Assembly: GCA_016218065.1 (NCBI GenBank)
Contig: JACRFA010000220.1
Location: 1-39,730 of the forward strand
DNA: 39,730 bases
From: Ignavibacteriota bacterium
GTDB lineage: Bacteria; Bacteroidota; Ignavibacteria; UBA10030; UBA6906
Reading direction: 5' to 3'
Shown here: positions 16,462 to 30,486 of the stretch, in pieces
Position numbering within the stretch: position 1 is the first letter of the stretch
How the letters are laid out: the number at the start of each line of letters is the position of its first letter
Translations under genes and position numbers: made by a program
Notes under the pieces: model-generated
Databases searched by the model: none
Told to the model about the DNA's origin: nothing
What the model saw: only the letters and a program-made list of their open reading frames with translations

Positions 16462-16798
16462 GATGATTCGTCAATAGGATCGGGAGAGCTTCGAGTATAT
16501 TTCCCGTTACCTTTTGACGTTGAGTATGGAGAGCGGCAGGTGGGCTGCCGAGGCCCGGTTTCCATGGGCAACTCCATGCGACGCATTTTTCCTTATCCTT
16601 TCTTCTCTTGTTGATGTGGGGACGACTCCTGCAATCTAAGCACGCCCGCAAAGGAGGTGGTGTGGAGGACGAAACATCCGATCTGACTTTTAGCTGATAC
16701 AACCCAGTCTCCGGCGCGGTGGGTCGCGGCTCATTTCCGTGCGATCATCCGCGTTGCTCTCGAAATCCATCAAAATCATTAAACAGAGGGAGGTTACC
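16462..16798 (+). other. 337-base leader without a recognised gene
   Basis: This gap precedes the metalloprotease. It holds small hairpins (GGCAG/CTGCC at 16535-16549; GCCC/GGGC nearby), a TATATT at 16496 without a good -35, and a perfect AAGGAGGT Shine-Dalgarno site at 16651-16658 followed by GTG (16662) and an 11-codon ORF ending at TGA. A 27-codon ORF starts at ATG 16614 in the same frame and includes it (MWGRLLQSKHARKGGG...). I do not recognise a known riboswitch. The metalloprotease has its own site (GGGAGG) at the end of this stretch. Confidence 0.45.
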
Positions 16799-18904
16799 AT
16801 GGCTCAGAAAGATCCAACACTTGCAGTGGATTACGCCAGAGAGTTCTCGATCACGGAACGCTCTGTTGAAGAGACGGCGGCAATAGAGTCGGTGCGTGAA
16901 GAATTCCAGGAGGAGCCTGAACAAATCGAGATGGAAGCAACTCAGGCGCCGGCGAAAGCAGCGCCGCCGATTCCGACTCCAATTCCAATACCCATTCCCA
17001 TTCCGATTCCTGTTCGCACGGTCAGCGGCAGGTATCGGGGAACGGCGGGCGTGTATCAACTCGAGCTACGCGTCGATGTTGATCGCACCCGGCCATTGAA
17101 GAAGATCAGCGGCGACTTCTATCAAACCATCGGTGGAACGACAACGTACTTCGGGTCGTGGGTTGTCAACTCGCCGGCGGTGACCGCAACAACGACGAAG
17201 ATCACCATCAAAGGCGCAACGAGCGGAACATTTGCGACAGGCGCACCGATTGTACAGGTGAGCATCATGCGGCGTTCGGCAATTCTTCCGCCGGCCCCGG
17301 CCATCGTGCAATTCTTTACAACCGGAGGCTCGCCCGGTGCGATGTATCTGTGCACATTCGAATCGACGTTGTTCCGTCGAATTCGCATCGAAACGGATCG
17401 CGCATCCGACGTGACCACTCCGATCTTCACGAACTACAATACGGGATCGTTGCCGTCAGGAGGTCCGGCTCGCAATCTGAATGTCGTGAGCGCGTATGCA
17501 GAAGCGGGCATCGAAATGATCCCGACAACGGGGAGCAACGTCATCAACATCGCCGAAGCGGGAACGAACGCCCGATGGAGCAATGCCGAATTGCACAATG
17601 CAATGATGAGGAACTTCACGTTGTGGCGAGATCAACCGCAATGGGCGGTGTGGCAATTCGTTGCCCAACTTCACGACATGGGATCGGGTCTCTACGGAAT
17701 CATGTTCGACCAAGCGGGGAAACAACGACAGGGATGCGCCGTGTTCCACGCGGGCATTGGCGGCACGACCGCCGACAAGCTCCGGCTTCAACTCTACACG
17801 TACGTGCATGAGTTGGGTCATTGCTTCAACTTGCTGCATTCATGGCAGAAGTCGTATGCCGTGCCTCCGTCACCGAATCGTCCGCTGGCTCTCTCGTGGA
17901 TGAACTATCCGTGGTATTATCCCAGCGGAGGGGCGGGCGCATTCTGGAGCAACTTCCCGTTCCAATTCGATGCCGAAGAATTGATGCATCTCCGTCACGG
18001 CTTCCGCAACAAAGTGATCATGGGAGGCAACAACTTCACCGTCGGCTCGGCGCTGGGTCGCGACATTATGGCCGATCCGTTGCGTGATGACTCGCAGTTG
18101 TCATTCAACATCACCACCCATCAGAAATCGTTCGCTCTCGGCGAGCCGGTTGTGCTGCAACTGACATTGGGCACGACGGATGCGCGTTCACACAATGTGC
18201 ATACCTGGCTCCATCCCAACTACGGACTCACCAAAGTCGCAATTCAAAAGCCGGATGGCAAGGTGATTACGTACGAGCCGCTGATCGACCATCTTGTTGG
18301 TTTGCAGGAGCGAGTGATTGGTCGTGATGCGTTGGTGCAGGATAGCGCGTATATTGGATACGGAAAGGACGGATTCTACTTCGACCTGCCGGGCTACTAT
18401 CGCATCAGAGCAGCGTATGCTGCACTGGATGGCTCGGAGGTTCTGTCGGAGATGATCACCGTCCGTGTGCGCTACCCGGTTACGGCGCAGGATGAGGAGC
18501 TGGCCGATATGTTCATGGGCGAGGATCAAGGCGCGCTGCTGTACTTGCTCGGGTCCGATAGCGAGTTCCTGAGCAACGGCAACGCGGTGTTCGATGAAGT
18601 GCTGGCGAAGCATCCGAAGCATCCGCTCACGAATTACGTTCGGCTGCTCAAGGGCGTGAATGCGAGCCGTGACTTCAAGAACATTGTCGATCCGAAAGAA
18701 GGCCAGGTGATCGTTCGTCGCGCATCGCTGGATGAAAGCGCAAAACTCCTGACCGCCGTTGCAGATACCGGCATCGTCGATCCGGTTTCCGTCCGCATGA
18801 GTCTCTCGAAGCTGGCGGAGGCGCAAAGCTCGCACGGCGATGACGAGTCCGCTGCAAAGACGTTCAGCAAACTTTCGTCCATCGGGTTGCGGACAAAGCC
18901 GTGA
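16799..18904 (+). CDS. Zincin (metzincin-like) metalloprotease, non-secreted
   Basis: The start at ATG 16799 (701 residues) is preferred to the ORF-track GTG at 16739 because GGGAGG lies 6-7 bases before it. No signal peptide is visible. An acidic N-terminal segment (EEFQEEPEQIEME) leads to a Pro-Ile repeat linker (PIPTPIPIPIPIPIPV). The protease domain has HELGHCFNLLH (zinc His337, His341, His347; Glu338) and a Met-turn-like SWMNYP (Met368), then FDAEELMHLRHGF. A beta-sandwich-like region follows (about 430-600) and a helical TPR-like C-terminus. Function unknown. A small beta protein gene follows and an AraC-type gene precedes it. Confidence 0.8.
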   Translation: MAQKDPTLAVDYAREFSITERSVEETAAIESVREEFQEEPEQIEMEATQAPAKAAPPIPTPIPIPIPIPIPVRTVSGRYRGTAGVYQLELRVDVDRTRPLKKISGDFYQTIGGTTTYFGSWVVNSPAVTATTTKITIKGATSGTFATGAPIVQVSIMRRSAILPPAPAIVQFFTTGGSPGAMYLCTFESTLFRRIRIETDRASDVTTPIFTNYNTGSLPSGGPARNLNVVSAYAEAGIEMIPTTGSNVINIAEAGTNARWSNAELHNAMMRNFTLWRDQPQWAVWQFVAQLHDMGSGLYGIMFDQAGKQRQGCAVFHAGIGGTTADKLRLQLYTYVHELGHCFNLLHSWQKSYAVPPSPNRPLALSWMNYPWYYPSGGAGAFWSNFPFQFDAEELMHLRHGFRNKVIMGGNNFTVGSALGRDIMADPLRDDSQLSFNITTHQKSFALGEPVVLQLTLGTTDARSHNVHTWLHPNYGLTKVAIQKPDGKVITYEPLIDHLVGLQERVIGRDALVQDSAYIGYGKDGFYFDLPGYYRIRAAYAALDGSEVLSEMITVRVRYPVTAQDEELADMFMGEDQGALLYLLGSDSEFLSNGNAVFDEVLAKHPKHPLTNYVRLLKGVNASRDFKNIVDPKEGQVIVRRASLDESAKLLTAVADTGIVDPVSVRMSLSKLAEAQSSHGDDESAAKTFSKLSSIGLRTKP

Positions 18905-20820: not shown

Positions 20821-22110
20821 TTACAGCTCATCAAACCACGATCTCATTTTATCGAGAACGCCGCTCTTGCCAAGAAGAGGTATCTTGAACTTTGACTGCC
20901 CCGCATCGGCTGTTGCGTTCACCTTCGCAGAGGACGACCGCTCCTGATACTTTAATCCATGATATACCAACCCGACCGCAGTTGAGTACACAGGGTTCTG
21001 GATTTCGCGAACAAGTCCGCCGGCGAACCCGCTTGGGATTCCGATCTTGACCGGCATACCGAGCACTTCTCGCGCAAGCTCAGACGTACCTTTGATCAGC
21101 GCACCGCCGCCCGTCAGGACAACACCGGCGGAGAGATGCTTCGAGTAGCCTGAGCGTTTGATTTCGAGCGCGGCGATTTCAAAAATTTCCTCCATGCGCG
21201 GCTGAATGATCGTCGCAAGCAACCGCTTGTCGATTTCGATCGGCTGCCGTCCGCCAACTCCCGGCAGGATGATCGGATCATTATCAACAACGGCGGGAAT
21301 GTATGCGAAGCCGTGTTCCTTCTTCAGCTTCTCCGCCTGTTCGCCGAGTATGCCAAGCCCCTTGCGAATGTCATCGGTGACTTTCTTCCCCGCGATCCCG
21401 ATCACGGCTGTATGACGGATAGTTCGCTCTTCAAACACGGCAAGATCTGTCGTTCCACCTCCAACATCGAGCAGCGCGATGCCCACTTCTTTTTCCTCAT
21501 CATCAAGAACGGCGTAGCTCGACGCGAGCGGTTCGAGCACCATATCGGCGACTTCGAGTCCGGCGCGCTGAACGCATTTGTAAATATTCTGCGCAGCGCT
21601 GACGAGTCCGGTAATGATGTGCACGTTCGCTTCCATCCTCACGCCCGACATGCCGAGCGGATCGTACACGCCATCCTGTCCGTCGATGATGAACTCCTGC
21701 GGGATGACGTGAATGATCTTTCTGTCGGTCGGCAGCGCGACGCGCTTCGTGTCTTCGATCAGGCGATCGATGTCGGCCTGCGTCACCTCGTGGTCCGCGC
21801 CGCTAATACCGATGACGCCGCGGCTCTGGAAGCTCTGGATGTGATCGCCGGCGATACCCACGATCACCGATTTGATATCGACGCCTGATTGCGCACGCGC
21901 CTCGTCAACCGCCGCGCTGATCGAGCGGATCGTTCGGTCGATGTGGGTGACAACGCCGCGCATCATGCCTTCCGACGTCGCCCGTCCGACGCCAAGAATA
22001 TTCACGCGGCCATGTTCATCGGTGCCAGCGACGACGGCGCAGACCTTTGTTGTGCCGATATCAAGTCCAACAATGATGTTGTTGTCGTTGTCCATAGCGT
22101 CTTCCTTCAT
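20821..22110 (-). CDS. ftsA: Cell division protein FtsA
   Basis: This actin-like ATPase tethers FtsZ to the membrane. It shows phosphate 1 (VGLDIGTTKVCAVV), phosphate 2 (IALLDVGGGTTDLAVF) and adenosine (VLTGGGALIKG) motifs, and a C-terminal amphipathic helix (VLDKMRSWFDEL). The ORF track begins at 22134, but the ATG at 22110 overlaps the ftsQ stop (ATGA), and a second ATG at 22095 has a good AAGGAAG site. Either is more likely. ftsA with ftsQ upstream and ftsZ downstream is the canonical order. Confidence 0.96.
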   Translation of the reverse strand: MKEDAMDNDNNIIVGLDIGTTKVCAVVAGTDEHGRVNILGVGRATSEGMMRGVVTHIDRTIRSISAAVDEARAQSGVDIKSVIVGIAGDHIQSFQSRGVIGISGADHEVTQADIDRLIEDTKRVALPTDRKIIHVIPQEFIIDGQDGVYDPLGMSGVRMEANVHIITGLVSAAQNIYKCVQRAGLEVADMVLEPLASSYAVLDDEEKEVGIALLDVGGGTTDLAVFEERTIRHTAVIGIAGKKVTDDIRKGLGILGEQAEKLKKEHGFAYIPAVVDNDPIILPGVGGRQPIEIDKRLLATIIQPRMEEIFEIAALEIKRSGYSKHLSAGVVLTGGGALIKGTSELAREVLGMPVKIGIPSGFAGGLVREIQNPVYSTAVGLVYHGLKYQERSSSAKVNATADAGQSKFKIPLLGKSGVLDKMRSWFDEL

Positions 22111-22892
22111 GAGTGAGCATCCTTGTGGCTCCATCGAACCACAACCTGATCTTCGAAACGTAAGTCGATGTACTGCAGCATATCGACGCCTTCGCGCACG
22201 ACAGCGGAATTCCAGAATCCTTCGAACTTCACGAGCTTCGCGCCGATGTGCTCGCGACCCAGCACGACGGGAATGCCGAATTCAGAAGTGTAGAACATGA
22301 ACTCCCTGTTTGCATCGAGCCGCAGTTCGGAAATATTTTTGTACACATCATCTCCAACCTCGCGGGCAACGGAAAGAATGCGCAACGCCTCACGCACCGT
22401 CGCATCGGTCGTTTGCTTTCCGGCGATGAGAGTCGCCGTTGCCATCGATCCATTCAGGACCGGGAGATCGAAGATGTACTGCGATCGCGCCGGAGGAAGA
22501 ACAACGCCTTCGGCGTCGAGGTAATACAGCTTGTCCAGCACGATGGCCGCCACGGGCACGCGTTCATCAATGGAGATGCGGACGCGATTGGGGATGTCGC
22601 GATGCACCGCCGCTGATTTCACATACTCCATGTTCAAGACTCGCTGCTCGATTGCATAGAGATCGAGTTCGAACAGCCGGGCGTTGGGACTGACTTTCGC
22701 CAGCGCCAGAATTTCTTTCGATGACGAGATGCGATTGCCTTCGACAAGGACTTCGATTGCGCGACACTCCTCCTTCCACGCATTGACGTACACCGCTAAT
22801 GCCAGCAGCGTGAGAAGCAGCAGCGCCATCAGAAGAAAGCTCTTCTTCGCGCTCGGGCGTTTCGGCGTGTCAGGCTGTCGCCATTCGTCCAT
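22107..22892 (-). CDS. ftsQ: Cell division protein FtsQ
   Basis: This 261-residue bitopic protein has a short basic cytosolic tail, one transmembrane helix (FLLMALLLLTLLALAVYV), a POTRA domain (IEVLVEGNRISSSKEILALAKV) and a beta domain (NRVRISIDERVPVAAIVLDKLYYLDAEGVVL, typical of FtsQ). It links division enzymes to the ring in the FtsQLB complex. Its ATG overlaps the upstream stop (TAATG), and its own stop overlaps ftsA. Confidence 0.93.
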   Translation of the reverse strand: MDEWRQPDTPKRPSAKKSFLLMALLLLTLLALAVYVNAWKEECRAIEVLVEGNRISSSKEILALAKVSPNARLFELDLYAIEQRVLNMEYVKSAAVHRDIPNRVRISIDERVPVAAIVLDKLYYLDAEGVVLPPARSQYIFDLPVLNGSMATATLIAGKQTTDATVREALRILSVAREVGDDVYKNISELRLDANREFMFYTSEFGIPVVLGREHIGAKLVKFEGFWNSAVVREGVDMLQYIDLRFEDQVVVRWSHKDAHS

Positions 22893-23416
22893 TACGCAAC
22901 CCGCGCAAGTTGTTCTTGATCAAAGCCGACGAAATCGAAGTTCATCTCAAGATCCACTCCGCACCTATCGCGAATAATCCTCTGTGCATGCGTGACGAGC
23001 GCGAAGATGTCCGCCGCTGTTGCTCCCCGCATGTTCGCGACCGTGCCGCCGATGATCTCAGCGCCGCCCCAGAGTATGCCGTTCACATCCGCCGCGTGGA
23101 TGAGGGCGTCGATGGATTGGTTCTCGGGCGGCTTGAACATTGCTACAGCTTTTGCGCCGGTGAAACGACGATTCGTGAAGCAGATCGCTGCCCCGCGAAT
23201 CCCTCTGTCGCTCACAAGCGTCGTTGACTGAAGCGTGACGTGCGGAATGCGATGCCGGGAAAAGTACGCTCGAAGTTCCGCGGCTTCATTCTCATTCGAC
23301 ACTTCGAAGAGATAGTCAGCCGGGCCTCCGACGCCGAGCGCGCAGTAGGGCGCCGCCGGCTCATCGATTTTTATCGTGCAGCGAAAGTGCTTTCGTATTT
23401 CCGTGAGCGACAACAT
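22892..23416 (-). CDS. MurB-like protein, short form lacking catalytic residues
   Basis: The gene occupies the usual murB slot between murC and ftsQ and is fully integrated (8-base gap, then TAATG). MurB reduces UDP-GlcNAc-enolpyruvate with FAD and is normally about 300 residues; this is 174. The N-terminal part (ALGVGGPADYLFEV, then STTLVSDRGIRGAAI) matches the first FAD-domain half, but the GGGSN loop is degraded. The sequence then jumps to the C-terminal part (FKPPENQSIDALIHAADVNG, GGAEIIGGTVANMRGATAADI). The catalytic Ser of GSxFKNP reads VAMFKPP, and the Glu of LExEV reads LEMNF. Activity is unlikely; a structural or regulatory role is possible. Confidence 0.78.
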   Translation of the reverse strand: MLSLTEIRKHFRCTIKIDEPAAPYCALGVGGPADYLFEVSNENEAAELRAYFSRHRIPHVTLQSTTLVSDRGIRGAAICFTNRRFTGAKAVAMFKPPENQSIDALIHAADVNGILWGGAEIIGGTVANMRGATAADIFALVTHAQRIIRDRCGVDLEMNFDFVGFDQEQLARVA

Positions 23417-23424
23417 CGTTGTCT

Positions 23425-24810
23425 CTATGCCTTTTCTGATTTCAAATGCGCGATGAACTCTTCGCCGAATTTCCAGATATCGCCGGCGCCCATGGTGATG
23501 ATGATGTCGCCGCGCTGCTTCGTGCGCAGCAGGAACGCGGGAACATCCTTCTTCTCCGGGACGTAGTGAACGTTTTTGTGTCCGTACTCTTTTGCCGTGT
23601 TTGCAATCAGCTCACCGGTGATGCCCTGAATCGGTTCTTCGCGAGCCGGATAGATGTCGGTTACAACCAGCACATCGGCGTTGAAGAACGATCGACCAAA
23701 ATCTTCATAGAAATCCCGCGTGCGCGAGTAGAGATGTGGTTGAAACACAGCGATCACGCGTCTGCGCCATCCTGCTTTGACCCCGGAAAGCGTCGCCGAG
23801 ATTTCCGTCGGATGATGAGCATAGTCATCCACCACCATAATCCCGTTCACATCCGCCTTCACTTCCCAGCGACGGAACACGCCCGTAAATTTTTCGATGC
23901 CCGCTTTCACTTTGTCGAATGGAACGCCAAGCTCAAGCCCCACCGCGGCTGCCGCCAGGGCGTTCTGCACGTTGTGCTTTCCGGGAATCTGGAGCGTGAT
24001 CTCGCCAAGCTCCTTCCCGTCGCGCACGACGAGGAACGACGTTGTGTTTTCTTTATGCCGGATATCGACAGCCTGCAGATCGGCCTGACCATTCAGTCCG
24101 TAGGTGATGATTTTCTTTTTGATCTTCGGCATGATGTTCTGCAGCGCCGGTTCATCAAGACACAACACGACGAATCCATAGAACGGAACCTTTGCCGCGA
24201 ACTGAATGAACGCGCCTTTGATGTCTTCCAGATCGCGGTAGCAATCGAGATGATCCGTTTCCAGCGTCGTTAACACGGCGATCGTCGGGGTGATCGAGAG
24301 AAACGAGCGATCAAACTCATCGGCCTCGACAACGATGAAGTCGCCTTTGCCGAGTCGCGCGTTTGACCCCGCCAGGCCGCGCAAGCGTCCGCCGACGATG
24401 ACCGTGGGATCGACCCCTCCTTCCATCAACACCAGACTCACCATCGACGTTGTTGTCGTCTTGCCGTGAGTACCCGCGATGCCGATGCCGTACTTCAGTC
24501 GCATCACCTCCGCGAGCATTTCGGCGCGACGGATCACGGGAATTTTTCTTTTCTGCGCCTCGACGATTTCTGGATTGTCGAGCGCCAGCGCCGATGAATA
24601 GACAACGGCATCGACGTCCGGGTCGAGATTCTGCGCCTGATGTCCGATGAAAACTTTTGCGCCGAGCGATTCCATACGCTCGGTATTGTCGCTCGCGGCT
24701 TTGTCGGATCCCGTGATCGTGAATCCTTGATCGATCAGGATCTCAGCGATGCCGCTCATGCCGATGCCGCCGATGCCGACGAAGTGGAGTTTTTTTATTG
24801 ATGAAAACAA
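23425..24810 (-). CDS. murC: UDP-N-acetylmuramate-L-alanine ligase
   Basis: This Mur ligase adds the first amino acid (L-Ala) to UDP-MurNAc. It has the MurC-typical N-terminal Rossmann loop (HFVGIGGIGMSGIAEIL), ATP loop AGTHGKTTTT (about 112-121), VVEADEFDRSFL, and a C-terminal domain with DDYAHHPTEI. At 461 residues the length is normal. The start codon appears to be TTG (24810), since no ATG lies nearby in frame. The cytosolic product feeds MurD. Confidence 0.97.
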   Translation of the reverse strand: MFSSIKKLHFVGIGGIGMSGIAEILIDQGFTITGSDKAASDNTERMESLGAKVFIGHQAQNLDPDVDAVVYSSALALDNPEIVEAQKRKIPVIRRAEMLAEVMRLKYGIGIAGTHGKTTTTSMVSLVLMEGGVDPTVIVGGRLRGLAGSNARLGKGDFIVVEADEFDRSFLSITPTIAVLTTLETDHLDCYRDLEDIKGAFIQFAAKVPFYGFVVLCLDEPALQNIMPKIKKKIITYGLNGQADLQAVDIRHKENTTSFLVVRDGKELGEITLQIPGKHNVQNALAAAAVGLELGVPFDKVKAGIEKFTGVFRRWEVKADVNGIMVVDDYAHHPTEISATLSGVKAGWRRRVIAVFQPHLYSRTRDFYEDFGRSFFNADVLVVTDIYPAREEPIQGITGELIANTAKEYGHKNVHYVPEKKDVPAFLLRTKQRGDIIITMGAGDIWKFGEEFIAHLKSEKA

Positions 24811-24868: not shown

Positions 24869-25378
24869 TTATCTGTCTGTGAACCCCGGTTGTCGCCAGC
24901 GCGGCCGTTTCCGTTTTGGCACGTGTTGGGCAAGCCGCTGCATCTCAATCACCAGCTCGCGCTCTTTCTCGTACCGACCGATGCGAATCCGGATTGCGCG
25001 GCGGCGTCCCTTGAGCTTCATCACCACCACTTGAAAGCGGCCGCTTGTCTGAACCAGCCGCTCGCGACCGATATGCATCCAATCGATGTCCTTGATGCTA
25101 ATCGTGCGTTCGTGAAATCTGTTTTTGAAAATGATCGCGTCCTCGGCGATGATCAGCCGCCGGTTGCGCACGAAATTCAGAATCAAGGCGCCGAACGACA
25201 TCAACACAAAGAAGATGATGACGTAGATGATCGGATCGTTCATCACGTAGCGAAATTCCTTTTCGACCAGCGAGCCGCGTATTCCACCGTACGCAATCAG
25301 CGTCACTAGATAGATCAACGCCGACAGGTAGTAGAAGTCGAGTTTGTATTTGAATGTCTTTTCGTGATGGTCGTCCAT
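24869..25378 (-). CDS. Two-helix membrane protein with PH-like domain
   Basis: This 169-residue protein has two transmembrane segments (YYLSALIYLVTLIAYGGI; YVIIFFVLMSFGALILNFV), followed by a beta-rich domain (RRLIIAEDAIIFKNRFHERTISIKDIDWMHIGRERL) that resembles bacterial PH (bPH2-type) domains. A very basic C-terminal tail follows (PKRKRPRWRQPG). It sits inside the dcw cluster between murG and murC, which are normally adjacent, and is transcribed with them. The family assignment is from fold-like pattern only. It may be a membrane-bound adaptor for the cell wall machinery. Confidence 0.6.
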   Translation of the reverse strand: MDDHHEKTFKYKLDFYYLSALIYLVTLIAYGGIRGSLVEKEFRYVMNDPIIYVIIFFVLMSFGALILNFVRNRRLIIAEDAIIFKNRFHERTISIKDIDWMHIGRERLVQTSGRFQVVVMKLKGRRRAIRIRIGRYEKERELVIEMQRLAQHVPKRKRPRWRQPGFTDR

Positions 25379-26642: not shown

Positions 26643-26933
26643 CTAAATCGATTCGCCCAAATCATTCCACGCCGGATTCTTTGATTCGATAAGAACAAGT
26701 TTTCGTATCCTCAACCAGCCTTTCAATTGTTTCTCTCTTGCAATCGCGAACCTGATATCGTCAAACGGTTCGTAGTACACCAATCGGTCAAGACCATATT
26801 TGCTCGTGAAGCCTTCGACAAGTCTGTGTTTGTGTTCATACATTCGTCGTAGCAAGTTGTTTGTTACGCCGATGTACAGCGTTCCGTTCCTTTTATTCGT
26901 CGTGATGTAAACGAAATACTGCCGCGTCTGCAT
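26643..26933 (-). CDS. Single-domain GIY-YIG nuclease
   Basis: A predicted single-domain nuclease of about 96 residues. The GIY-YIG core is visible: YFVYITTNKRNGTLYIGVTN, then NLLRRMYEHK, Glu in the later helix (YYEPFDDIRFAIAREKQLKGW) and terminal NPAWNDLG. This is the small YhbQ/UPF0213-like type, not UvrC. The ORF track begins at GTG 26951, but ATG 26933 places the protein start just before the first strand and has a GGAG close upstream; both are possible. It sits between elements E1 and E2 in the murG-ftsW gap, where it is not a normal dcw member. Confidence 0.9.
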   Translation of the reverse strand: MQTRQYFVYITTNKRNGTLYIGVTNNLLRRMYEHKHRLVEGFTSKYGLDRLVYYEPFDDIRFAIAREKQLKGWLRIRKLVLIESKNPAWNDLGESI

Positions 26934-26952
26934 TGCTCCAACTCTTTCCACC

Positions 26953-28416: not shown

Positions 28417-29787
28417 TTACAATGTGAAAACAATTTCCTTGAACACGCGTCCGCGGTGTTCATAATTCTCAAACCAATCAAACGACGCGCACGCGGGCGA
28501 CAACAGCACAACATCACCCGCTGAAGCGAACGCAGTCGCCTGACGGATCGCTTCTTCCATCGTCTCTGCTTTGCTCATCGGCTTCATGCCTTTGAACGCA
28601 GTCATCACTTTGTCCCCCGATTCGCCGATTGCAACAATTGCCTTCACGTATTTTTCGACGAGCGGATAAAGGGTTGAATAGTCGTTCCCCTTATCGCGCC
28701 CGCCGAGCAGGACGATGATCGGCCTCGAAAAGCTCTGAAGCGCGTACCAAACAGAATCCACGTTTGTCGCCTTCGAGTCGTTGACGTACGCAACGCCGTT
28801 CAGCTCACGCACGAATTCGAGCCGATGCTCGACGCCTTTGAAGTTCTTCAACGTTGCGCGCACGGACGCGGTCGGCACGTCGAATGATTGTGCAATGAGC
28901 GCCGCCGCCATCGCGTTCATCACGTTGTGCTGCCCTCTGATGCTGATCTCATCGAGCGCTATCACGTCTGATTCACGGCCATCGAGTGCGGTGAAGAGCG
29001 AGGCGCTGCTGACGAATGCCCCTTGCTTTAGTCTCGCTTTCGTGCTGAACGGCAATTTGCACACGTCGGGATGGACATGCGCTTCTACATTTGAACGAAC
29101 GAGATCGTCATCGTAATTGTACACGACGGAATCTCCGGATCGCTGGTTCTCAAACACCCTGCACTTCGACGCAATGTACTTCTCCATCGAGTGCTCATAT
29201 CGGTCGAGGTGATCGGGCGTGATGTTCAGCAGCGCAGCAACGCGCGGCCTGAACCGCTCTATCGTATCAAGCTGAAAACTGCTTACTTCCACTATTGCCG
29301 TGCTGTCACGCTTCACATCTTCCACTACTTGTGAAAATGCCAATCCGATATTTCCGGCAACGACGGCCGGGCGTTTTGCGTCGTCAAAAATTCTTCCGGC
29401 TAATGCCGTCGTCGTTGTTTTGCCGTTCGTACCGGTAATCGCGACGATCGATCCTTCACAAAACCAACTGGCGACTTCGATTTCGCTAACGACTTTCTTT
29501 CCTTGCGTCAGCGCCTGCTTCACGATCGGCGCGTCCGACGGAACGCCGGGACTGAGCACGACAATGTCTGACTGAAGCACTCGCTCGGTGTTGCCGCCGA
29601 ACTCACAGGCGATTTTCAGTTGACTCAACTCCGCTGCCGCAGCCTCCATCTTTGTCGCAGGAGCTTTGTCGCTGAGAAACACTTCCGCTCCGTGCAACTT
29701 CAACAACTTTGCTACTGCAATGCCGCTTCTCGCGGCGCCGATGATGCTGTATTTCTGTCCTTGAATCAACATTAGACCATTGTTCAC
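28417..29787 (-). CDS. murD: UDP-MurNAc-L-alanine-D-glutamate ligase
   Basis: This Mur ligase adds D-Glu. It has the N-terminal fold (YSIIGAARSGIAVAKLL), ATP loop TGTNGKTTTTAL, LNITPDHLDRYEHSMEKY, and C-terminal VNDSKATNVDSV and LLGGRDKGNDY, all typical of MurD. At 456 residues the length is normal. GTG 29787 overlaps the HEPN stop (GTGA); ATG 29772 is an alternative start just before the Rossmann loop. In this cluster it follows a HEPN/MNT pair rather than mraY directly. Confidence 0.96.
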   Translation of the reverse strand: MNNGLMLIQGQKYSIIGAARSGIAVAKLLKLHGAEVFLSDKAPATKMEAAAAELSQLKIACEFGGNTERVLQSDIVVLSPGVPSDAPIVKQALTQGKKVVSEIEVASWFCEGSIVAITGTNGKTTTTALAGRIFDDAKRPAVVAGNIGLAFSQVVEDVKRDSTAIVEVSSFQLDTIERFRPRVAALLNITPDHLDRYEHSMEKYIASKCRVFENQRSGDSVVYNYDDDLVRSNVEAHVHPDVCKLPFSTKARLKQGAFVSSASLFTALDGRESDVIALDEISIRGQHNVMNAMAAALIAQSFDVPTASVRATLKNFKGVEHRLEFVRELNGVAYVNDSKATNVDSVWYALQSFSRPIIVLLGGRDKGNDYSTLYPLVEKYVKAIVAIGESGDKVMTAFKGMKPMSKAETMEEAIRQATAFASAGDVVLLSPACASFDWFENYEHRGRVFKEIVFTL

Positions 29788-30176
29788 GACGTTGCTTCAA
29801 CTCGCCTGAGAACAAAGCTACGGACCTCCTCTGCCGCTTTGATTGCCTGCTTTGCATCCGAGAGTGTCAAGCCCAACTCTGCTGGGTATTTCACGTGTAC
29901 ACTGTACGGATTCAGCACGCGGCAGAAATCATTCAGGAAGAGGAATTCAGGGTCACTCGACACGCACGCATGGTTAAGGGCAAGCAGGTCGTGAGTTCTC
30001 TCCGGTGGAATTCCTTTGCTCGCCAAGAAAGCCTTCAGCACCTTCTCCGCAGATTGTTGAGAATGATTGCAGGCTGACCAGACGATCTTATTTTTGCCAC
30101 GCAGCGCACGTTTCGCCATCGTGAGATCATCCTCGGCTTTTGAAAGCCATTGATCAAACAGGTTACCAACGCTCAT
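29784..30176 (-). CDS. HEPN domain protein (MNT partner)
   Basis: This all-alpha protein of 130 residues has the HEPN pattern: WLSKAEDDLTMAKRAL, then SACNHSQQSAEKVLKAFLASKGI, RTHDLLAL, and a late NPYSVHVKYPAE. It overlaps the nucleotidyltransferase gene by 14 bases and the murD start by 4. HEPN-MNT pairs often act as toxin-antitoxin modules, in which MNT modifies or controls HEPN. The RNase motif R-x4-6-H of toxic HEPNs is not evident, so an RNase role is doubtful. The location inside dcw is unusual. Confidence 0.85.
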   Translation of the reverse strand: MSVGNLFDQWLSKAEDDLTMAKRALRGKNKIVWSACNHSQQSAEKVLKAFLASKGIPPERTHDLLALNHACVSSDPEFLFLNDFCRVLNPYSVHVKYPAELGLTLSDAKQAIKAAEEVRSFVLRRVEATS

Positions 30177-30486
30177 AGAGCACTCTGCCGCGGTCCAATA
30201 TTTCCCTGTAAAAAAAGTCTCCCATTTCTATTCTCTTCTTTATCTCAGCCGGTGTTGAGACAATTACATCGAGAGAAAAAGTGCGCGGGAGGAAGATGTC
30301 AGAAACTTCCCTGATCCTTTCGACTGCACGCTTTCGCGTTCGCTTGATGACCAGAAAGTCATAATCACTTGAACTCGTTGGAATTCCGTACGCTCGCGAG
30401 CCGAAAAGAATGATCTTCTCGGGGCGATATTCTCTCACAATCTTATCTCGGATTTCCCTAATTCGCTTGTCTTGTCTTTGCCGCAT
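30163..30486 (-). CDS. MNT-type nucleotidyltransferase domain protein
   Basis: This protein of 107 residues has the minimal nucleotidyltransferase signature GSRAYGIPTSSSDYDFLVI (GS then DxD) and a third acidic residue in FSLDVIVST, so the active site appears intact. It is the partner of the HEPN gene that overlaps its end. It lies 45 bases after the mraY stop in the same direction and is presumably read through from the wall genes. Confidence 0.88.
   Translation of the reverse strand: MRQRQDKRIREIRDKIVREYRPEKIILFGSRAYGIPTSSSDYDFLVIKRTRKRAVERIREVSDIFLPRTFSLDVIVSTPAEIKKRIEMGDFFYREILDRGRVLYERW

Follow-up and report, generated by a model that had tools for sequence, protein, structure and literature searches.

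A MurB-derived, domain-deleted probable pseudoenzyme between murC and ftsQ in a genus of Ignavibacteriota

Results and Discussion

Position and anatomy of the half-length gene

The window, a stretch of 39,730 nucleotides from an Ignavibacteriota bacterium (contig JACRFA010000220.1), contains a dcw (division and cell wall) cluster in which the murB slot between murC and ftsQ is occupied by a gene of about half the usual length. The open reading frame (22892..23416, minus strand) encodes 174 amino acids from an ATG start. The order of the genes is murC, half-length gene and ftsQ, with a gap of 8 nt on the murC side and a stop/start overlap (TAATG) on the ftsQ side, in agreement with the original prediction of an intact frame adjoining ftsQ. 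The features of the locus are given below, with codons counted in the half-length gene.

22107..22892 (-): ftsQ, downstream neighbour; its start overlaps the stop of the half-length gene
22892..23416 (-): half-length slot MurB, catalytically decayed by its motifs, with domains I and III; orthologues at L004:1498-2028(-) and L005:1498-2028(-)
23183..23416 (-): remnant of MurB domain I, codons 1-78, with VGGPADY and SDxGxRG kept; placed by hhalign on residues 2-81 of the active slot MurB
23222..23230 (-): former GxGSN FAD loop, codons 63-65 (QST), shortened by two residues relative to active MurB
23141..23182 (-): poorly conserved linker at the domain II gap, codons 79-92; domain limits from PMC4408115 and PMC3689657
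22895..23140 (-): domain III remnant with the C-terminal tail (LARVA), codons 93-174; placed by Pfam MurB_C and hhalign
23126..23146 (-): former GSxFKNP motif, codons 91-97, now VAMFKPP, with the proton-donor Ser changed to Ala
22937..22951 (-): former LExEV motif, codons 156-160, now LEMNF, with the active-site Glu changed to Asn
23425..24810 (-): murC, upstream neighbour, 8 nt from the half-length gene

Homology of the half protein to MurB was found at both of its ends. Pfam MurB_C matched residues 90-162 with 33.4 bits against a cut-off of 27, whereas FAD_binding_4 of Pfam, which matches the remote and the full-length slot copies described below, gave no match in the half protein. In the profile-profile comparison by hhalign with the full-length slot MurBs of the same order, the half protein aligned with a probability of 99.9% (E 1.5e-31), and its residues 1-78 and about 92-174 were mapped to residues 2-81 and about 220-306 of the 307-aa enzyme. 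These two pieces bear out the earlier reading that the ends of MurB are kept and the centre is absent; about 137 residues of the full-length slot MurB are missing.

LucY, a 302-aa MurB without type I insertions, is composed of domain I (residues 1-83 and 297-302), domain II (90-215) and domain III (235-288), and its FAD is bound mainly between domains I and II (PMC4408115). The identical three-domain layout has been described for MurB, in which FAD is bound by a module of domains I and II and the substrate by domain III (PMC3689657). According to these domain limits and this layout, the stretch absent from the half protein corresponds to domain II, with the cut near the interdomain loops. Judged by its sequence, the protein encoded at 22892..23416 is a MurB derivative without the FAD-binding domain II. 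The engineered 3+1 fragments of LucY likewise contain domains I and III without domain II; good expression was reported for them, and combining them with domain 2 produced no FAD fluorescence (PMC4408115). Those fragments are artificial and in the order 3-1, whereas the half protein is natural and in the order 1-3. The AlphaFold2 model of the half protein, built on a two-sequence alignment, had a pLDDT of 44.6, a value too low to support a folded structure.

Loss of the catalytic motifs

All three catalytic motifs were changed in the half protein, as had been noted originally for the GGGSN loop, the catalytic Ser and the catalytic Glu. Compared with the motif consensus, GxGSN was replaced by --QST, GS[MVI]FKNP by VAMFKPP and LELEV by LEMNF, in which Asn stands in place of the second Glu, the residue that we take to be the active-site Glu of MurB. 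In the two congeners of the window genome (G001 and G002), GxGSN was lost too, and Arg was found at the proton-donor Ser site and Asp at the active-site Glu site. None of the half proteins contained a proton-donor Ser, the Cys that replaces it in type IIb, or the active-site Glu. The half protein is predicted neither to bind FAD in the manner of MurB nor to reduce the substrate.

The positions lost in all three half proteins are those of the active site, while the framework was retained: GGPAD, SDxGxRG, the glycine and hydrophobic positions of domain III, and GF near the C-terminus were kept in 3/3. Such a pattern would be expected when folding is still required of a protein and catalysis no longer is. 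The half protein shares domains I and III, the murC-murB-ftsQ slot and a clade of slot MurBs with type II MurB (NF010480/PRK13905; 1HSK, 3TX1, 4PYT), but it is without domain II, GxGSN, the proton-donor Ser/Cys and the active-site Glu. It was matched by NCBIfam NF010480 in two pieces with 67 bits, about one quarter of the equivalog cut-off of 259, and its score for TIGR00179 (25 bits) was far below the equivalog cut-off of 144.5.

An intact MurB encoded elsewhere in the genome

With such a protein in the slot, the cell had been expected to need a true MurB elsewhere or another route, and the search of the genome revealed such a MurB. The remote MurB, encoded on contig C6 (L001:820-1902), is 360 aa long, contains the intact motifs GGGSN, GSFFKNP and LEREP, and scored 361.5 bits against the NCBIfam cut-off of 231. 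It appears to be a type-I-like MurB and presumably performs UDP-GlcNAc-enolpyruvate reduction.

MurB_C matches above the cut-off were present in 21/21 genomes of the family, and the remote copy was present in 20 of them, with its motifs intact wherever they could be read; the genome without it (G011) is 70% complete. Contamination as the origin of the remote MurB, which lies on a contig of 9.9 kb, was rejected, as orthologues occur in 20/21 family genomes and all remote copies fall into a single clade. In the MurB tree, this clade (support 100) was separate from the half proteins, which grouped with the full-length slot copies of the family (support 96-100).

Conservation of the half-length gene in the genus and selection on it

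The half-length gene was found in the same slot in 3/3 genomes of the genus (the window genome G000, G001 and G002) with a length of 174-176 aa, and in both congeners it is separated from ftsQ by 3 nt. The congener proteins were 44-48% identical to the window protein. The domain III remnant was the best conserved part (52-55% versus 44-47% for domain I), and the only length change between the window and congener halves was one 6-nt difference in the linker. An assembly or frameshift artefact, which had been named as a result that would undo the original prediction, might be suspected in a draft assembly of 319 contigs; it is excluded for practical purposes, since two further assemblies share the architecture at this level of divergence. 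A single-sequence search of the genome-contig collection gave no match, and the alignment search returned the record of G001 only. The scan of viral contigs for additional MurB sequences gave one match of 39 residues.

The half protein is under purifying selection, as tested formally on one close species pair (G001-G002, 19% of residues differing): omega was 0.26, and omega = 1 was rejected (2dlnL 30.8). In the same pair, omega was 0.16 for the remote MurB, 0.11 for ftsQ and 0.04 for murC, the half-length gene evolving more quickly than the two genes beside it. Between the window and its congeners the synonymous sites were saturated; the third codon positions were 0.34-0.37 identical, which is near random, and the first and second positions 0.58-0.70. 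Because the third positions are near random, constraint at the DNA level, for example by a promoter of ftsQ, was rejected as the main reason for the conservation. In the neutral simulation, the frame stayed open in 16/4000 runs at the G001-G002 distance and in 0/4000 runs at the window-congener distances. Purifying selection and the presence of the same gene in three species support the earlier view of a maintained pseudoenzyme, and the half protein is very probably non-catalytic and selectively maintained; a function of its own is a further step, discussed below.

The murC-ftsQ slot across the family and its relatives

In the family of 21 genomes, with the slot counted in all but G017, the slot contained a half-length gene in three (G000, G001, G002) and a full-length gene in four (G005, G006, G007, G011), and it was empty in 13, where murC is followed directly by ftsQ. 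All seven slot copies of the family were decayed. Phe was found at the Ser site and Ala at the Glu site in G005; Ser was changed to Ala and Glu to Leu in G007; Ser was changed to Ala with Glu retained in G011; and in G006 Ser was retained, Glu was changed to Asp and the FAD loop was broken (SNKSN). Among the relatives from other families that were examined, Ser, Glu and GxG[ST]N were all present in the slot copy in 23/23. The original prediction had counted full-length murB genes in the slot of relatives as evidence against it. Such genes do occur in four genomes, but those copies have lost catalytic motifs too and extend the pseudoenzyme case.

The four full-length decayed copies resemble the half protein in their slot, their clade and their decayed motifs, but they retain domain II and are 300-330 residues long. 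By gene order and length, these copies (L082, L083, L084 and L062 in G005, G006, G007 and G011) would be annotated as MurB. An intact remote MurB is encoded in addition to the decayed slot copy in G005, G006 and G007, though not in G011. Gene order alone is insufficient for calling a murB of the dcw cluster the working MurB.

The class-wide census of MurB covers the matches listed, and half-length MurBs may occur elsewhere. Twelve genomes of family f5 had, among these matches, a single MurB_C hit that lies elsewhere, and their slot was empty. Two genomes of genus g22 in family f6 (G030 and G224; 99% and 97% complete) had no MurB_C among the matches listed and no MurC match; other genomes of g22 have MurB, and the two may have lost peptidoglycan synthesis or may be missing sequence.

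In the tree of eight dcw proteins, in which several inner nodes were weakly supported, the genomes with a retained slot copy were scattered among about five separate losses. The simplest order of events would be presence of the second MurB in the ancestor of the family, release of the slot copy from catalysis, decay of the active site in each lineage, many losses of the gene and, in the window genus, loss of domain II. On this order, catalytic decay probably began before the deletion of domain II.

The same history could be read as slow decay throughout, with the slot gene made redundant by the second MurB and the half-length form a late, functionless stage. Active-site losses that differ by lineage, several independent outright losses of the slot gene, and an omega above those of murC and ftsQ are consistent with such a relic. 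The rejection of neutrality at omega 0.26, the frame still open at distances that saturate synonymous sites and at which a neutrally evolving frame would be broken, and the framework residues retained in 3/3 species argue against it, and we consider it rather unlikely, though the strongest of the alternatives.

The frame might also be kept solely for the coupling of ftsQ translation, with the protein selected merely against misfolding. The TAATG overlap in the window and the 3-nt spacing in the congeners would fit such a spacer, and selection against misfolding could explain part of the signal. Relatives in which murC is joined directly to ftsQ show that a spacer is not needed, and the retention of specific motifs (GGPAD, SDxGxRG) is not expected of one; this explanation is improbable.

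Possible role of the half protein

In the explanation that we prefer, the half-length gene would be the old murB of the dcw cluster, of type II. The second, type-I-like MurB (contig C6) would have taken over UDP-GlcNAc-enolpyruvate reduction in the family, after which the slot copy would have lost catalytic residues in each lineage that kept it and been deleted in the others. In the window genus, it would additionally have lost the FAD-binding domain II to give a protein of domains I and III. The translation of this protein may be coupled to that of murC and ftsQ, the protein may fold on the surviving body of domains I and III, and selection may keep it because it binds other proteins, without catalysis, in a cytoplasmic Mur/divisome assembly, with MurC, the remote MurB, FtsQ and FtsA as candidate partners. 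Co-localisation or complex formation has been reported for Mur proteins, and fusions of MurB with MurC are known (PMC6420597, PMC4803751). On the other side, the empty slot in 13 genomes of the family and 12 of family f5 implied that any role of the half protein is dispensable in relatives. Taken as a whole, the account from replacement through domain loss to a binding role has in our judgement an even chance of being correct; the binding or scaffolding role as such is plausible, at somewhat less than an even chance.

A different function could be proposed from the domain III remnant, which might still bind a UDP-sugar or nucleotide and regulate MurC or the remote MurB. In favour of this, MurB binds its substrate through domain III (PMC3689657), and this is the part of the half protein with the highest conservation. 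Against it, every one of the pocket residues (Ser, Asn, Glu and KHxNF) is altered, and the other wall of the pocket was lost with domain II. We regard a ligand sensor or regulator of this kind as very improbable.

The half protein resembles pseudoenzymes in general, in which a catalytically inactive paralogue is retained as a regulator or scaffold, in the lost catalytic residues, the continuing purifying selection and the active copy elsewhere; a binding or scaffolding role of its own is what the preferred explanation would add. In the search of openly licensed papers, no description of a MurB pseudoenzyme or of such a half-length MurB was found, although one may have been published outside that literature; we class the half protein as a MurB-derived, domain-deleted probable pseudoenzyme.

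MurB is usually seen as nothing more than an enzyme and a drug target. The window lineage offers a natural separation-of-function experiment, in which the chemistry presumably resides in another gene and a catalytically dead, domain-deleted MurB is selected beside ftsQ, and any role of MurB besides catalysis becomes directly testable there. It is conceivable, though unlikely, that the body of MurB serves a structural purpose at the murC-ftsQ node independently of catalysis, and that some lineages kept first a dead and then a domain-deleted MurB for this purpose once the reaction had passed to another gene. If so, ordinary MurB may hide a non-enzymatic function in the Mur/divisome assembly.

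Other features of the dcw cluster and the window

Several further open reading frames were observed in the window. The 721-aa frame at 16739-18904 (+) contains a zinc-metallopeptidase-like motif (HELGHxFNLLHSW) and a Pro/Ile-rich repeat, and had no Pfam match. Between murG and ftsW, a small frame with a GIY-YIG endonuclease domain (26643-26951, minus strand) was present, and no counterpart was seen in the dcw regions of the remaining family genomes that were checked. An overlapping pair of HEPN and nucleotidyltransferase (MNT) genes is inserted between murD and mraY (29784-30486, minus strand) and resembles a HEPN-MNT module of the toxin-antitoxin type within the dcw cluster; no such pair was seen in the corresponding cluster regions of G001, G002 and seven further genomes of the family.

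Between murG and murC, the frame at 24869-25378 (-) encodes a membrane-protein-like product of 169 aa, for which a DUF6585 match was obtained below threshold only. This protein was 61-81% identical in every family member checked and 78-81% identical to the congener proteins, versus 60% for FtsQ, and its gene is a constant, unnamed member of the dcw cluster in the family.
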